The position numbers were made by a program, and so were the translations under genes. Below are positions 11,958 to 20,142 of a stretch of 64,000 bases of DNA, piece after piece. Numbering within the stretch: position 1 is the first letter of the stretch; each line of letters starts with the position of its first letter. The stretch covers positions 1-64,000 of the forward strand of contig NZ_JABAFO010000004.1 of the NCBI RefSeq assembly GCF_012843675.1, given 5' to 3'. The DNA is from Lactobacillus sp. MRS-253-APC-2B (lineage in GTDB: Bacteria > Bacillota > Bacilli > Lactobacillales > Lactobacillaceae). Below the pieces are notes generated by a model. It was not told where the DNA came from, searched no databases, and was given only the letters and a program-made list of their open reading frames with translations.

Positions 11958-12875
11958 ATGAATTTGTTGAGTACATTGATTTTTGCTTTGATTCCAATTT
12001 TTGTAACGATTGGGCTTGGCTATCTGGCGGCCAGACGTGGGATTTTTAACGACCAGGACAGTAAAAAGTTCGTCAAGCTGGTTTTGACGTTCATGCTGCC
12101 ACTGCACGTGTTTGGCGGTTTATGGGGGACCTCGCGCCAGATTCTGGTTGAAAATGTGCCTTTGATGGGCTGGTTGGTGCTTTCTATGACGGTCTGCTAC
12201 CTGGTTATGATTCTGGTTTATCGATTTGGGTTTAAAAACTCGCGCCAACTGGTTACGCTGCGCGCCATGTCGATTGCCAATCCGTCCGTGCCGTTTATTG
12301 GTTCGGCTGTTTTGCCATTATTATTCAGTGCCAGCAATAGTGCCATTACGATTGGGATCTGCTCTTTAACGGTCAATATCATCATGCTGCCAATTGCTTT
12401 TGATTCATTGAGCAGTGATCATTCAGCGATTAAACGACTAACCGATACGTTTAAAAAGCCATTGGTGATTGCAGCTGTTTTGGGATTTTTGCTGACGCTG
12501 TGTGGATCTCAGATGCCAACTCAATTAACCAGTACGTTTGATTTGCTGGGTAAAGGAGCTGGTGGGGTGGCGATCTTTGCTGCCGGTATTGTTTTAGGGA
12601 CGCGTCATCTGTCATTTGACAAAACGATTCTGACCACCGTGATGATGAAAAACATCGTCTTCCCGTTGGTTGTCTTGCTGATCATGATGGCTGCTGGCGT
12701 ATCGCATGACCTTATTCGGTTGGTAGTGATTGCCCTGGCCATTCCAACCGCAACAATGCCATCGACTTTGGCCATCCAATTCAACGTTAACGAAAAAGAG
12801 CTGGCCTCAACCCAGTTCTGGAGCACGGCTTGTTCATTGATCACGCTGTCGGCATTTGTTTTGGCACTGGCTTAG
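11958..12875 (+). CDS. AEC-family transporter (auxin efflux carrier / malate permease type)
   Basis: A 305-residue membrane protein with about ten hydrophobic helices. AEC features include 'LIPIFVTIGLGYLAARRGIF' at the start, 'FVKLVLTFMLPLHVFGGLW' and 'ANPSVPFIGSAVLPLLF'. Lactic acid bacterial members carry malate or other organic acids, or amino acids. The ATG follows AAAAGGGGCTG. It has no operon partner before it; the gap after it leads into the leader of the epimerase/isocitrate dehydrogenase operon. Confidence 0.8.
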   Translation: MNLLSTLIFALIPIFVTIGLGYLAARRGIFNDQDSKKFVKLVLTFMLPLHVFGGLWGTSRQILVENVPLMGWLVLSMTVCYLVMILVYRFGFKNSRQLVTLRAMSIANPSVPFIGSAVLPLLFSASNSAITIGICSLTVNIIMLPIAFDSLSSDHSAIKRLTDTFKKPLVIAAVLGFLLTLCGSQMPTQLTSTFDLLGKGAGGVAIFAAGIVLGTRHLSFDKTILTTVMMKNIVFPLVVLLIMMAAGVSHDLIRLVVIALAIPTATMPSTLAIQFNVNEKELASTQFWSTACSLITLSAFVLALA

Positions 12876-12879
12876 CAAA

Positions 12880-13335
12880 AATTTACAAAAGAGAAACATG
12901 CATGTGATCTATTTCTTTACAATTATTGACTATGCTTAATCATGGAAACAGAAAAACACCTCGGCTTGATACGCTGACCAATCGGGATTTCATTCGTGTG
13001 ATTCCTCGCCTATTTTGAGTCGCCTTAGGGGTCTGGCTGACTCAGATCATAAATTTCGATTGTTGATCATGCGTCAATTCGAAATCTGTTCGTTTTGCTG
13101 TTTCCAAGGCAAGTCAAGAAAGTTCCTAGAATTAGACAAAAACGTACCATATTCTTAACCTGAGCACGCATGCTTCTCCCAGCAGATGCGTGCTTTTATT
13201 TTTTAAATCGACCGATGAATACGTTTGTTTAAAAGACGATTTAAGCTGGTTGTGTATTGTTGATGAATCAGGGTCATGATAAGCTTGAGCCAAACCATCA
13301 CAGTATATTTTAATGAAATCAAGGAAGGCGAAAGC
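12880..13335 (+). promoter_or_regulatory. Long structured leader upstream of the epimerase/isocitrate dehydrogenase operon
   Basis: This 456-bp non-coding stretch contains GAGTC...GACTC (about 13017-13044), an ATTTCGATTG...CAATTCGAAAT stem (about 13051-13085) and a strong terminator (13163-13206). The terminator lies 130 bp before the first gene of the operon. The arrangement suggests either an attenuated 5' leader or a separate small RNA. No T-box motif, recognised riboswitch core or convincing leader peptide was found. Confidence 0.4.
13163..13206 (+). terminator. Terminator inside the leader of the epimerase operon
   Basis: AGCACGCAT pairs perfectly with ATGCGTGCT, followed by TTTATTTTTT. 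Confidence 0.8.
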
Positions 13336-14688
13336 ATGGTTTGGGAAAATACACAAGGCGATCAGCTGGTGGCCAAGAATCGACACAATATTGCCAAAAC
13401 GCAGTTAGTTCCTTATTTTAATCTGGTTGTGAAGTCAGCGCGAGGATCGATCGTAACCGATGTTGAAGGCAAGCGCTATATTGATCTATTGGCAACTGAT
13501 TCGGCAATGAACGTTGGGCACAATCATCCCCGTGTGATTACAGCAATGAAAAGACAGATTGATGAGTTTATCAGCTACGATACAGGATACTTTACCAATC
13601 CCACCACGATCAGATTAGGTGAACGGCTGGCAAAACTAGCGCCCAATCCAGGTCATAATAAGGTTGCATTTGGCACGTCTGGATCTGATGCGACTGAAGC
13701 GATGATTAAATTTGCTCGCGCCTATACGCACCGTCAGTATATCGTTTCGTTTGAAGGTGCCTATCATGGAACGACGTATGGGTCGCTGAGTATGAGTGCC
13801 TGCAATGTGGATATGGCTCGCGGAATTGGCCCAATGCTGCCGGGGATCGTTCATGTACCGTTTCCCAATACCTACCATTGTCGACCTGGTGAAACTGAAC
13901 ATGAAACAGCGCAGCGTGCATTTGCTGACTTTAAGCGTCCGTTTGCCGAATTTTTACCGCCTGAAGAAACGGCTACCGTGATTTTGGAGCCGATTCAAGG
14001 GGATGCCGGCATTATTGTACCGCCGCGTGAGTATATGGAGGCAGTCGATCGATTTTGTCATCGCCATGGCATTCTGATTGGGGTCGATGAGGTCAATCAA
14101 GGATTGGGCAGAACGGGCAAACTATGGTCATATCAGCACTTTGGTCTGCATCCGGATCTGATTGCCACGGCCAAGTCCTTGGCATCAGGTCTGCCACTCA
14201 GCGCGGTGATTGGCTCAGCCACGATTATGGATGCACCTGGAACCTCAGCCTATTGCTTTACTGGTGGGGGCAACCCAGTCAATGCTGCGGCGGCTCTGGC
14301 GACGCTGGACGTTTTGCATGATGAGCATTTGATCGAAAAATCGGCCGTTGATGGCGAATATGCCAAAGAAAAATTCATACAGCTGGCGCAAAAACATCCA
14401 TGCATCGGTGACGTACGCATGCTGGGACTCAATGGCGGCATTGAGATTGTTAAGAATCGCCAGACCAAAGAGCGTGACTCACTGACGGCGGCTAAGATCA
14501 TCTATCATGCTTTTCAAAAAGGTCTGATCATGGCCAAGTTGGGAGGCAACGTTTTGCGTTTTCAGCCACCATTGACGATCTCACGCAATCTGATTGATGA
14601 GGCACTGCTGATATTGGACCAGGTAATCAAAGATGTTGAAGAAAATCAAGTTGAGCTGCCAGACGAATTACGGCACGATGGCTGGTAG
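13336..14688 (+). CDS. Isoleucine 2-epimerase-like class III PLP enzyme
   Basis: 450 residues of the class III aminotransferase fold. PLP motifs: 'FGTSGSDATEAMIKFARAY', 'VILEPIQGDAGI', 'IGVDEVNQGLGRTGK' and the Schiff-base Lys in 'ATAKSLASGLPLSAVIG'. From memory, sequence and C-terminus ('...DGW') closely resemble the branched-chain amino acid 2-epimerase of Lactobacillus buchneri/otakiensis, which racemises L-Ile to D-allo-Ile. That is stronger than the resemblance to acetylornithine or GABA transaminases. ATG 13336 has AAGGAAGG upstream; earlier in-frame starts lack a site. Isocitrate dehydrogenase follows after 21 bp. Confidence 0.7.
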   Translation: MVWENTQGDQLVAKNRHNIAKTQLVPYFNLVVKSARGSIVTDVEGKRYIDLLATDSAMNVGHNHPRVITAMKRQIDEFISYDTGYFTNPTTIRLGERLAKLAPNPGHNKVAFGTSGSDATEAMIKFARAYTHRQYIVSFEGAYHGTTYGSLSMSACNVDMARGIGPMLPGIVHVPFPNTYHCRPGETEHETAQRAFADFKRPFAEFLPPEETATVILEPIQGDAGIIVPPREYMEAVDRFCHRHGILIGVDEVNQGLGRTGKLWSYQHFGLHPDLIATAKSLASGLPLSAVIGSATIMDAPGTSAYCFTGGGNPVNAAAALATLDVLHDEHLIEKSAVDGEYAKEKFIQLAQKHPCIGDVRMLGLNGGIEIVKNRQTKERDSLTAAKIIYHAFQKGLIMAKLGGNVLRFQPPLTISRNLIDEALLILDQVIKDVEENQVELPDELRHDGW

Positions 14689-14709
14689 AACTAACAAGGA
14701 GTGATTTTT

Positions 14710-15969
14710 TTGAGTGAACTGATAAAAATGAAAAATGGGCAGCTGCGGGTTCCGGATAATCCAGAAATTCCCTACCTGCAAGGTGACGGAATCGGTCCAG
14801 AGATCTGGCAGACTGCTCAGCCGGTCTTTGATGCGGCTGTTTTGCACGCCTACCATGGCCGGCGTGAGATTGAATGGCTGCCGTTGCTGGCTGGTGAACG
14901 AGCCTATGAGCTGACTGGAGAATGGCTGCCAGAAGAAACACTGGCAGAATTGAAAAGACATCTGGTTGCTATTAAGGGACCCACGACGACACCGGTTGGT
15001 CAAGGACACCGCTCGATTAACGTTGCCTTGCGTCAGACACTGGATTTGTATGCGTGCTGGCGACCTGTTCGCTATTTTAAAGGAGCCCCTTCACCGGTCA
15101 GACATCCGGAACGAGTGAACATCGATGTTTTTCGAGAGAATACCGAGGACATCTATGCGGGTATTGAGGCACCAGCTGGATCAGATATGGCCAAGGCATT
15201 GGAGAATCTGCTGCAAGAAACTGGTCAGCTGAGTCGCGTTCGTTTTCCAGCTACTTCGGCATTTGGCATTAAGCCGATTTCAAAAGAGGGCTCACAGCGT
15301 TTGGTTCAAGCTGCGGTTGAGTATGCCTTGAAGAATCATCGCCATACCTTAACACTGGTTCACAAGGGCAACATCATGAAAGAAACTGAAGGCGGCTTCA
15401 AGCGCTGGGGATATGAGCTGATCGAACAGAATTATGCTGAGCAGGCCTTTACGATGGCACAGTTTGCCAGGATCAAAAAAGAGCATGGTCAAAAGCTGGC
15501 TGAGCAATCATTGAATCAGGCTCGTAAACAAGGAATGCTGATCGTTAATGATGTCATCTGTGATAATTTCTTTCAACAGATCCTGCTTTTTCCTGAGCAC
15601 TTTGAGGTTGTGGCTACGATGAACCTAAATGGTGACTATCTGTCAGACGCCCTGGCGGCTCAGGTTGGTGGTTTGGGAATTGCGCCAGGAAGCAATATCA
15701 ACTACCAAACGGGGCATGCGATCTTTGAAGCCACGCATGGGACGGCACCGCAGTTGGCAGGTAAAAATCTGGCTAATCCAACCTCTCTGATTCTATCGGG
15801 AGCCATGATGATGGAGTATCTAGGTTGGCAGCAAGCCGCGGAGATAATTTTCAAGGCAGTTGGTCAGGCGATTGCCAATCAAAAGGCGACGCCAGATCTG
15901 GCACCATCAAAAACTGCGCTGTCAACCAGTGAATATGGTCGCTTATTGGTCGCTCTTATCAATTCTTAA
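14710..15969 (+). CDS. icd: Isocitrate dehydrogenase, probably NAD-dependent
   Basis: 419 residues aligning over their length with bacterial isocitrate dehydrogenases such as B. subtilis CitC. Substrate residues are kept ('GHRSINVALRQTLDLYACWRP', 'FRENTEDIYAGIE', 'GNIMKETEGGFKRWGY', 'NDVICDN', 'NLNGDYLSDALAAQVGG'). The cofactor site is changed: E. coli Lys344-Tyr345 read Gln-Leu ('TAPQLAGKN'), Val351 reads Ala, and the Tyr391/Arg395 segment ('ATPDLAP') lacks both. The enzyme makes 2-oxoglutarate, presumably for glutamate synthesis. The start is TTG 14710, eight bases after AAGGAG. Confidence 0.85.
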   Translation: MSELIKMKNGQLRVPDNPEIPYLQGDGIGPEIWQTAQPVFDAAVLHAYHGRREIEWLPLLAGERAYELTGEWLPEETLAELKRHLVAIKGPTTTPVGQGHRSINVALRQTLDLYACWRPVRYFKGAPSPVRHPERVNIDVFRENTEDIYAGIEAPAGSDMAKALENLLQETGQLSRVRFPATSAFGIKPISKEGSQRLVQAAVEYALKNHRHTLTLVHKGNIMKETEGGFKRWGYELIEQNYAEQAFTMAQFARIKKEHGQKLAEQSLNQARKQGMLIVNDVICDNFFQQILLFPEHFEVVATMNLNGDYLSDALAAQVGGLGIAPGSNINYQTGHAIFEATHGTAPQLAGKNLANPTSLILSGAMMMEYLGWQQAAEIIFKAVGQAIANQKATPDLAPSKTALSTSEYGRLLVALINS

Positions 15970-16132: not shown

Positions 16133-16172
16133 TTTTAAATTTGAAAATAAATTCGCAAATTTAAAAATGTGG

Positions 16173-16201
16173 TTGACATCAATCAAACAGAGGATTATTA
16201 T
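16173..16201 (+). promoter_or_regulatory. Promoter of RNA copy 1
   Basis: TTGACA, a 17-bp spacer and TATTAT; the same in copy 2. Confidence 0.7.
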
Positions 16202-16207
16202 AATAGT

Positions 16208-16388
16208 CGTAAATTAAAAGTTGATAAGAAACAAAGCATCCTTAACGGAAAAGATTCGCTTAAAACTGCAATCCTGTAGGCATTAAGGGTCCATCTTATC
16301 AGGTCTTAATTCTTCGTTAAAACTGCGCATAATCTTAACGATCGCGTACGAAAAAACGCCAGTGGCTTTTGGGTCACTGGCATTTTTG
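16208..16388 (+). ncRNA. Putative small RNA, copy 1
   Basis: No ORF with a ribosome site. GATAAG (about 16222) can pair with CTTATC (about 16295), enclosing CCTTAA paired with TTAAGG. A second element has GTTAA...TTAAC. It ends in the GCCAGTG/CACTGGC terminator at 16358-16381 followed by TTTTT. It resembles no RNA I can name; 6S RNA was considered but not supported. Confidence 0.6.
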
Positions 16389-16507
16389 TTTGGTCGCAAA
16401 TAGAGATGTGAGTACCGCTTTATTAAAGATTTAAAATATATTAAAAGAACTACTCAAAATTTAATAATTTTAAATTTGAAAATGAATTTACAAATTTAAA
16501 AATATGG

Positions 16508-16536
16508 TTGACATCAATCAAACAGAGGATTATTAT
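16508..16536 (+). promoter_or_regulatory. Promoter of RNA copy 2
   Basis: TTGACA at 16508, a 17-bp spacer and TATTAT at 16531; the sequence between is the same as in copy 1. Confidence 0.7.
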
Positions 16537-16542
16537 AATAAT

Positions 16543-16730
16543 CGTAAATTAAAAGTTGATAAGAAACAAAGCATCCTTAACGGAAAAGATTCGCTTAAAA
16601 TTGCAATCCTGTAGGCATTAAGGGTCCATCTTATCAGGTCTTAATCTTCCACAAAAAACTGCGCATAATCTTTAACGATCGCGTACGAAAAAACGTCAGT
16701 GGCTTTTGGGTCACTGGCGCTTTTGTTTTT
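16543..16730 (+). ncRNA. Putative small RNA, copy 2
   Basis: Nearly identical to copy 1. The outer long-range stems are unchanged. Differences fall at one base in the loop region, in the linker before the second element, and in the terminator. There a C-to-T change in the 5' arm leaves a G-U pair, and an outer C-G pair is added. The terminator is CGTCAGTG/CACTGGCG at 16694-16719, then TTTTGTTTTT. Confidence 0.6.
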
Positions 16731-16795: not shown

Positions 16796-17794
16796 TTAAT
16801 AGCGAATCTCGTTGCGGGAACGGCCGCCATTGGCAATCGTGATGGCATCGTTGGAGGCGATTTGAACCATATTGCGAGCCGCCGTTTCGGTAAAGAAGGC
16901 AACGTGGGGAGTAATTACCACGTTTGGCATGGTCGCCAGTTCCTTGTAGTCGCTTGGAACGTCTTGTGCAGCAACGTTGGTTTGGCCAAAGAAGGTGGTT
17001 TCATCAGCCAGCGTATCCAGACCGGCCCCGGCAATCTCGCCATCCTTTAAGGCTTTAATCAATGCCGGCGTGTCAATCAAGGCACCACGCGCTACATTGA
17101 TCAAGTAGGCGGTGTTCTTCATCTTTTTGAACTCTTTTTCACCAATCATACCGCGCGTACTTGGCAAAAGCGGTGTGTGCAGTGAGATGATGTCAGATTC
17201 CTTAAAGATGGTCTCACGATCAACATATTCGGCAAATGGCTCCAGAGCAGGATCGTAGGCAATATCGTTGACCAAAACGCGGGCACCCAAAGCTTTGTAG
17301 ATCTGGGCGGTAGCTGTACCAATGTGACCAGCACCGATCAGGCCAACCGTGCAGTTGTAGATTTCATTACTGATGAGGGTTTCATTCCAGCTAAAGTCGT
17401 GATCTTGATTCATCCGGGCGTCAAAAATGCCGATCCGCCGCAGCAGGTACATTGCTTGGGCGACTCCCATTTCGGCAATGGCGCGTGGTGAGTAGCTGGC
17501 AACATTGGTAACGATCAGGTGGTTGGCTTTGGCGGCGTCTAAGTCAACCATGTCAACCCCAACCATGCGACAGCTGATCTGCTTGATACCGAAGCTGGCT
17601 AATTTTTCATAGACTTTGGCACTGCCCATTGAACCCGTCTGTAAAACGGTGATGGCATCAAAGTCTTTTGCCAGATCAACCGTATCATCGTTGAGTGGTT
17701 CTTCAATCATCTTGAGTTCAGTTTGTGTCTGTTCGGCCCATTTTTCAGCATAAGGCTTTTCATATGGGTGCGTACTGTACATTAGTACTTTCAT
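16796..17794 (-). CDS. ldhD: D-lactate dehydrogenase (D-2-hydroxyacid dehydrogenase family)
   Basis: 332 residues. NAD-binding 'GLIGAGHIGTATAQIYKALG', catalytic Arg in 'LINVARGALIDT', acid in 'GAGLDTLADET', and catalytic His in 'VITPHVAFFTETA'. Length and the aromatic C-terminal segment match lactobacillar D-LDH, which reduces pyruvate to D-lactate. Start: ATG after GGAGGG. The 310-bp upstream spacer is very AT-rich and carries the promoters of this gene and the divergent shikimate-kinase-like gene. Confidence 0.85.
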   Translation of the reverse strand: MKVLMYSTHPYEKPYAEKWAEQTQTELKMIEEPLNDDTVDLAKDFDAITVLQTGSMGSAKVYEKLASFGIKQISCRMVGVDMVDLDAAKANHLIVTNVASYSPRAIAEMGVAQAMYLLRRIGIFDARMNQDHDFSWNETLISNEIYNCTVGLIGAGHIGTATAQIYKALGARVLVNDIAYDPALEPFAEYVDRETIFKESDIISLHTPLLPSTRGMIGEKEFKKMKNTAYLINVARGALIDTPALIKALKDGEIAGAGLDTLADETTFFGQTNVAAQDVPSDYKELATMPNVVITPHVAFFTETAARNMVQIASNDAITIANGGRSRNEIRY

Positions 17795-18075: not shown

Positions 18076-18122
18076 AATGGCAATTAAATTAGAAAATCAT
18101 TAAAGAAATGGAGGCATTCATT

Positions 18123-18569
18123 ATGGATTTAGTCGTTGTAAATTTCATGGAAGATAACCAAGCAGGTGTCAGCCGACTGATTAGCGAATTTCTGCATCGT
18201 CCCGTCACGGATCTGAATCAAGAAATCGTCAATTTAAGTGGGCAGACGATGGATCAACTGACGATGAGCCGTGGTGAAGCCGACCTCCGTCAAATCGAGC
18301 ACGATGTCTTTGGTGCCAAGTTGGCTGAACATAACGTGGTACTGACTGCGCCAAGCCATGTCCTGACCCGTTTTGAAAATCTCAAGATGCTGCAGGAAAC
18401 CGGTGCGTTTGTGGTCGTCTTAAAAGATCAAAAAGCTGCGGACAAACCGTTTGAAGCGATGCTGGAACAAAGCTTTGGGCATGATCGGATGATTGACGCG
18501 GCTAATCTTTCAACTAGAGAAGCTGTTCGACGTGTTGCTGCTTGTTGGAGTACTCAAAAGGCTGCCTAG
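18123..18569 (+). CDS. Shikimate-kinase-like protein lacking the P-loop
   Basis: 148 residues; ATG 18123 follows TGGAGG. The layout follows AroK: a first strand, then 'VTDLNQEIVNLSGQTMDQL' (shikimate-binding Asp segment), 'RGEADLRQIEHDVF' (the GE..FR..E motif), and a segment matching the GGG loop. The P-loop that should follow the first strand reads 'VVNFMEDNQAGVS' with no GKS/T, and the GGG loop reads 'LTAPSHVL'. ATP-dependent kinase activity therefore looks lost, though the frame is open and the promoter is good. It is probably a repurposed binding or regulatory protein. No aromatic pathway genes are nearby. Confidence 0.6.
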   Translation: MDLVVVNFMEDNQAGVSRLISEFLHRPVTDLNQEIVNLSGQTMDQLTMSRGEADLRQIEHDVFGAKLAEHNVVLTAPSHVLTRFENLKMLQETGAFVVVLKDQKAADKPFEAMLEQSFGHDRMIDAANLSTREAVRRVAACWSTQKAA

Positions 18570-18627: not shown

Positions 18628-20142
18628 TTAGTATTCATCGTTATTGATTTCCAAGACTTCTGGGAAAAGCGAGAGCAGGTATTCGCGCGGCCCAATCTGG
18701 TAGTCAAACGTAACATGGATGGGGAAGATCTCTTCATGATCCTTAAGTTTCAAATGCAAGTGGCGTTGGTCAAGCCGTACTTTGATGCCCAGCTCCACGG
18801 CTTCACGCAACAAAGACTGCAGACTGGTAGAGCATTTGCCTTTCAGTGCTGCCAACGGCTCGGTATATTCAGCAATCCGTTTGCGATCGGCCATAGCGGT
18901 TGCTAAGCCAAATTCTAAAAGATCGCCTTGCGGACTGATGTGATCAAGTAATTGGCCACTTAGCGTCAATAGAGGATTTTCCAAACGTTGTTCAGCCAGT
19001 TTAAGACTCTTGGTGTATTTATCCGGCAAGGCTAGTTCGGAAGCAGTAGCGTGCATCTGCTCAAGCAGCGGGGTGGCCAACGTTTTGACCCAGGCAAACA
19101 TTTCGGCGGGATGCTGCAAGGCGATTTGTTCATTGCGCTGGTCAGCAAGTCTTAATTGTTCAGAAAGTTTTTCAGGAAGCGGCTGCAACAGAGCATTGAT
19201 TAAAAAGAGTTCCAAGAAATTCAATGCCGCTGGACTGACGCGGGCGGGGGAAAATGGATCCAGGTCAAACGAGCGGAATTCCAATCGTTCGGCACCATTT
19301 TTTCGCAGGTCGTCCAAACTGTCGCCACGTCCCTTTAAGCGAACGGGACCATAAAATTCATGCGGTGAGAAAAATTGATGGTGATCGATGCGTTCCTCTA
19401 GCTGAGCAAGCTGTTCTTCAAACGAGTCATACGTGATCGTTTCGTCTTTTTGATTGGCATAGCCATATGAGCTGCTGCGAAGGCTGCGGACGGGGAACAG
19501 CAGATCTTGCGGCAGATTGCTTGGCAGATTGCCAGCAACCGGACTGGCCCCAAAAAAGTAGGTAAACAGCCAGCGCCACAACACAAAACTCTGGGCCAGC
19601 TTGAAGTTTAAAGCATTCTTAAAGTCGGCCAACGTGGCGAAGTCCTCATTAAAACCATGGTCCCACAGTGATTGCACCAGGGTTTGGTTGATGCTGTAGT
19701 TGACGTGGACACCGGTAAAAATCTCACGGGCCGTCCCATATTTTTGCTGCAGATAGTCGTGGTATTCAGCCATCCAAAAACGGGTGTTGAATGAACCGGC
19801 AAAGTCTAGGTCATCTTTAGAAAAGACAGGCGCAATGCTTAGTGGCCAGATAATCTCGTCTGCTTGGAGATGATCAGTGACCAGCTGCTGGAGCATTTCA
19901 AGATTGGCTAGATTCTCATTGGTGCCCTGTGTTGGTGTTCCAGCGAGCTCCAGCATGTTGTCGGCAAAATCAGTTTTTAAATATGGATTATGTCGCCTTG
20001 ACAAAAAATCGGCTGGGTAAGGGTAGCGGCTGATGCGACCGTCCTTTAGCAGGCGATGTTCTTCCAGCTCTAATCCCATGTAGTTTTTCGCTAACAGACT
20101 GCTTAGCTCGTTTTCGGCGATGATTTGACTTAACTTGCTCAT
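18628..20142 (-). CDS. gshA: Glutamate-cysteine ligase
   Basis: 504 residues matching the glutamate-cysteine ligase half of Gram-positive GshAB/GshA. Family segments include 'GLELEEHRLLKDGRISRYPYP', 'TDFADNMLELAGTP', 'WPLSIAPVF', 'GVHVNYS' and 'LEFRSFDLDPFSP'. It joins L-Glu and L-Cys to gamma-glutamylcysteine with ATP in the cytosol. The ATP-grasp glutathione synthetase domain found in GshAB fusions (about 750 residues) is absent. The product may therefore be gamma-glutamylcysteine itself unless a separate synthetase exists outside the window. Start: ATG after GGGGGAAGC. Confidence 0.85.
   Translation of the reverse strand: MSKLSQIIAENELSSLLAKNYMGLELEEHRLLKDGRISRYPYPADFLSRRHNPYLKTDFADNMLELAGTPTQGTNENLANLEMLQQLVTDHLQADEIIWPLSIAPVFSKDDLDFAGSFNTRFWMAEYHDYLQQKYGTAREIFTGVHVNYSINQTLVQSLWDHGFNEDFATLADFKNALNFKLAQSFVLWRWLFTYFFGASPVAGNLPSNLPQDLLFPVRSLRSSSYGYANQKDETITYDSFEEQLAQLEERIDHHQFFSPHEFYGPVRLKGRGDSLDDLRKNGAERLEFRSFDLDPFSPARVSPAALNFLELFLINALLQPLPEKLSEQLRLADQRNEQIALQHPAEMFAWVKTLATPLLEQMHATASELALPDKYTKSLKLAEQRLENPLLTLSGQLLDHISPQGDLLEFGLATAMADRKRIAEYTEPLAALKGKCSTSLQSLLREAVELGIKVRLDQRHLHLKLKDHEEIFPIHVTFDYQIGPREYLLSLFPEVLEINNDEY

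Follow-up and report, generated by a model that had tools for sequence, protein, structure and literature searches.

What is encoded by the two near-identical segments that separate icd from a D-lactate dehydrogenase-like gene (ldhD) in Lactobacillus sp. MRS-253-APC-2B? The original prediction, made on 64,000 nucleotides of contig NZ_JABAFO010000004.1 (here termed the window, to which all unprefixed coordinates refer), took them for tandemly duplicated small-RNA genes. We examined whether the segments have the parts of such genes, how far they are conserved, and which other readings of the locus are tenable.

Two tandem gene units between icd and ldhD

The upstream neighbor of the repeated segments is icd (14701 to 15969, forward strand), which encodes an NADP-dependent isocitrate dehydrogenase (NF005425, 547.6 bits against a cutoff of 490) and lies on the same strand as the repeats. 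Downstream is the ldhD-like gene (16796 to 17794, reverse strand), which scored 264 and 258 bits with PRK12480 and PRK08605, respectively, values below the model cutoffs. Because this next gene is convergent and no same-strand gene follows directly, a leader role for the repeated RNA is unlikely. As predicted, the intergenic region contains two tandem copies about 335 bp apart (start-to-start spacing of 335 to 337 bp), which align as direct repeats of 186 nt at 95% identity plus 57 nt of the 3' part, also at 95%. The candidate small-RNA genes occupy 16207 to 16391 (copy 1, ∼185 nt, with the start placed from the promoter) and 16542 to 16728 (copy 2, ∼187 nt), both on the forward strand, and are 94.6% identical.

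Each copy is preceded by a forward-strand promoter of the form TTGACA-17-TATTAT, at 16173 to 16201 and 16508 to 16536, matching the consensus at 11 of 12 positions with the expected 17-bp spacer. These were the two highest scoring of 10 sites in the region (4.1 expected from shuffled sequences). Each copy also ends in a strong forward-strand intrinsic terminator: in copy 1 (16358 to 16391), a 10-pair stem (16358 to 16381) with a 4-nt loop and a T tract, and in copy 2 (16694 to 16728), an 11-pair stem (16694 to 16719) with a 4-nt loop and a T-rich tail. The stems differ by a C-G to U-G change and one extra pair, so that pairing is retained, as had been proposed. With these elements, each copy would form an independent transcription unit, started by a sigma-70-type promoter and ended by a terminator of its own, with an RNA product of ∼185 nt. 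One correction concerns the left border: the conserved unit begins before the promoter, at a palindrome (16133 to 16166).

Several other genes in the vicinity were annotated in passing. Upstream of icd are an AEC-type carrier gene (11958 to 12875) and an aminotransferase gene (13276 to 14688). A small protein encoded at 18108 to 18569 weakly resembles shikimate kinase models (E value of 5e-8, well below the cutoff). A glutamate-cysteine ligase-like gene (18628 to 20142, 504 amino acids) aligns with the bifunctional GshAB model over the N-terminal part only and with a score below the cutoff. A second gene start resembling this ligase-like gene lies near position 22553 of contig C11.

Distribution and timing of the duplication

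By DNA search, the element was found in 3 of 50 Limosilactobacillus genomes: the present one, L. mucosae DSM 13345 (G027), and a close relative (G003). A covariance model search of the genus yielded no further carrier that survived inspection; with this model (R1), copy 1 scored 227.8 bits, as a member of its training set. The element is thus conserved beyond this strain, in three genomes of the genus only. Both relatives carry a single copy at the same position between icd and a convergent ldhD-like gene. The icd gene itself is rare, being found at an E value of 1e-80 in 4 of the 50 genomes, and the RNA is absent from the only other icd-bearing genome, G013, where icd is immediately preceded by an AEC-type carrier gene (L031).

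Outside the genus, no homologue survived inspection in a sample of the family (397 genomes by DNA, 394 by model). Weak model matches were not taken as homologues because opposite-strand matches at the locus itself reach 32 bits. Among the candidates rejected, L179 covers the tail of an obgE-like gene, together with its terminator, in a different genus, and L009 to L011 have in common only a terminator-like 3' part.

The genome contains no other copy, the sole match being that of the palindrome to its own opposite strand; this disposes of a trivial dispersed repeat. Two copies with sharp borders could also be produced by a mobile repeat inserted twice. Viral contigs and plasmids gave no match, however, and phages gave only a 30-base AT-rich match; synteny in the relatives and uniqueness in the genome already refute this explanation, to which we assign a negligible probability. 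Some bases are common to copies 1 and 2 but missing from L. mucosae, which probably places the tandem duplication after the split from L. mucosae.

Local conservation of the RNA unit and its promoter

Compared with L. mucosae DSM 13345, the RNA is 94.1% (copy 1) and 90.8% (copy 2) identical, whereas identity is 62% from icd to the palindrome and 46% downstream of the RNA; the neighboring genes are 74% (icd) and 84% (ldhD) identical. Within the conserved block, the -35 and -10 hexamers are invariant and the spacer matches at 9 of 16 positions (at most 56%, gaps allowed). This alternation of conserved box, variable spacer, and conserved box is consistent with a functional promoter, and a recombination tract would not readily produce it.

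The contrast is one of locality. Genes of this genome and of G003 have a median identity of 85.8% (95th percentile, 94.4%), and 20 other intergenic segments, 6S included, have a best match to G003 of at least 150 nt and at least 94% identity in the part compared, which amounts to 34% of the G003 genome. The conservation of the RNA thus stands out locally and not genome-wide, and it is at the local scale that selection on the RNA unit is visible.

A palindrome upstream of both promoters

The 34-bp palindrome at 16133 to 16166, TTTTAAATTTG-N12-CAAATTTAAAA, lies upstream of promoter 1 and is identical to L. mucosae at 34 of 34 positions, compared with 62% for the preceding 163 bp. Its counterpart upstream of copy 2 (16468 to 16501) has unchanged arms and three changes in the 12-bp center. 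In the 1.906 Mb searched (96% of the genome), the perfect 11-bp arms occur only at the two copies, and the next best site has three mismatches, with none having fewer. This confinement suggests a dedicated operator. The palindrome is therefore treated as a putative regulator site, which probably binds a transcription regulator upstream of each promoter. Its resemblance to an ARG box was also considered and rejected as weak and of a kind common in the AT-rich DNA of this genome.

Within the Lactobacillales, the streptococcal csRNAs are a precedent for a multimember sRNA set under one regulator, CiaR (PMC3091779). The palindrome of the present locus, with its two 11-bp arms around N12, sets it apart from these csRNAs, with the relation judged by Rfam scan alone.

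A 36-codon frame without the signature of coding

The original prediction described the units as free of open reading frames. This part does not stand as worded: a 36-codon frame (16169 to 16279 and 16504 to 16614) enters the RNA from the promoter. The frame is open in every copy, with its stop codon (TAG or TAA) at the same position, as would be the case for a small protein gene (VDINQTEDYYNSRKLKVDKKQSILNGKDSLKTAIL) or an RNA with two functions. The pattern of changes is not that of a coding sequence, however. Downstream of the -10 box, only 1 of 22 degenerate codons for the same amino acid differs (52% in icd), as do 0 of 9 fourfold sites (92 of 159 in icd); constraint therefore acts on nucleotides and not on codons. 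The frame also spans the promoter, where the spacer alters four successive residues; it starts upstream of the predicted transcript start, its start codon is absent in L. mucosae, and conservation extends ∼110 nt beyond its stop. The RNA is thus probably not peptide coding, and a protein or dual-function product is highly improbable.

Predicted fold of the RNA

The RNAalifold consensus for copy 1 (16213 to 16312, forward strand) consists of a closing stem, P1 (AAATTAAAAGTTGATAAGA/TCTTATCAGGTCTTAATT), and an inner stem, P2 (ATCCTTAA/TTAAGGGT). The GATAAG/CTTATC and CCTTAA/TTAAGG stems seen in the original prediction are identical in both copies. From 5' to 3', the predicted RNA first has the closing stem, which encloses the inner stem and unpaired loops that are conserved. 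A linker, likewise conserved and with a small hairpin, follows and leads to the terminator. Fold energies are moderately better than those of dinucleotide shuffles (z scores of -2.7 and -2.4). In P1, 15 of 16 pairs never vary, and in P2, one compensatory C-G to U-A pair fits the inner stem. Because only three distinct sequences are available, covariation is limited to this one pair and is not significant against shuffles (176/500).

Comparison with known RNA families

The family was described at the outset as unfamiliar, and Rfam bears this out: no family matched the RNA copies at the gathering cutoff, and matches at E values up to 10 were chance matches only. One alternative is that the RNA titrates RNA polymerase as a divergent member of the 6S or Lacto-usp type. 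The length of ∼185 nt and the long closing stem resemble those of the 6S RNAs of lactic acid bacteria, and a published survey of these bacteria discarded its L. mucosae 6S candidate (PMC8414754). RF00013 (6S) had no match at the gathering score in the window, and the generic Rfam 6S model found nothing in this genome, although it also misses many genomes of the genus. A genus model built from ten genus sequences, by contrast, retrieved one 6S each from this genome, G003, and G027 (161 to 164 bits). That of the present genome (C1:71517-71705, L076; 163.8 bits) is 98.4% identical to the G003 6S and unrelated to the duplicated RNA. A separate 6S in this genome and in both relatives already refutes the 6S reading, which we regard as having next to no chance of being correct. 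The 6S sequences of the relatives (L077 and L078) are clear with the genus-trained model, the discarded L. mucosae candidate of the survey notwithstanding. Lacto-usp (RF01710) had no match in the window or genome, where the genome search gave no match in any control genome either.

The Qrr sRNAs of Vibrio have sigma-54 promoters and depend on Hfq. The original prediction likened the locus to them; the duplication of sRNA genes is supported, and the likeness to Qrr is not supported beyond copy number. Here, the promoters are sigma-70-like (TTGACA-17-TATTAT) with conserved boxes, unlike sigma-54 elements (-24/-12); no Qrr model matched at the Rfam gathering score or appeared among the matches at E values up to 10; and two copies are present in one of three genomes.

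With respect to copy number and common control, the closest functional counterpart is LhrC1-5 of Listeria monocytogenes, several near-identical Gram-positive sRNA genes that are controlled together at transcription (PMC4132741). Loops and a single-stranded stretch ahead of the terminator are further similarities. In contrast, LhrC RNAs are 111 to 114 nt with redundant UCCC motifs (PMC4132741), while the present RNAs are ∼185 nt and neither copy contains a UCCC motif; no sequence relation is claimed.

Candidate modes of action

Each unit has its own promoter and terminator and appears, from sequence evidence, to be noncoding, the features of a trans-acting sRNA gene. For a structured, noncoding RNA with independent promotion and termination, regulation in trans is the preferred reading; most likely, unpaired loop or linker bases would pair with mRNAs. 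Duplex energies gave no signal above shuffled RNAs, either across 1,736 gene starts or, for three of four RNA segments, in 623 ortholog pairs; we therefore propose no target, and pairing in trans is put forward by analogy.

The same null result also favors an RNA that binds a protein, as a sponge or scaffold, and not mRNAs. High conservation of the whole 185-nt fold, stems included, is compatible with this view. The linker and loops are, however, conserved to the same degree as the stems; we noticed no recurring protein-binding motif, and no model of a known protein-binding RNA matches. We consider protein binding unlikely. A further alternative, in which the locus is a relic or an antisense element that targets icd, draws on the 5' arm of the RNA, which is complementary to the icd stop region at 15 of 17 positions (inverted repeats I3 and I4). 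By eye, this match is weaker in L. mucosae, where the RNA arm itself is unchanged, and an action on icd is accordingly rated improbable.

We thus favor, with somewhat better than even confidence, a stand-alone structured noncoding RNA gene that is specific to the L. mucosae clade, was tandemly duplicated after the split, and acts in trans. Duplicated small-RNA genes, the central claim of the original prediction, are supported by the promoters and terminators of each copy and by cross-species conservation. The two copies may provide more dosage or allow divergence of the linkers. A fuller reading, in which the regulatory RNA family is new, restricted to this lineage, equipped with a dedicated palindromic operator, and linked to a rare icd locus, and in which a fresh tandem duplicate is starting to specialize through linker changes, is offered tentatively and is rather doubtful as a whole.

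Significance

A literature search retrieved neither a description of an sRNA in L. mucosae nor an sRNA study of this gut lactobacillus group. The RNA has the look of a conventional regulatory sRNA that has so far gone undescribed. We would place it in a new family, of a kind already known, which adds a family and not a new principle. If transcribed, the two genes would represent an undescribed sRNA gene family in the gut lactobacillus group. The uniquely placed palindrome may serve as a handle on the regulator, and the single-copy relative, together with the recent duplicate, would make dosage and specialization testable.
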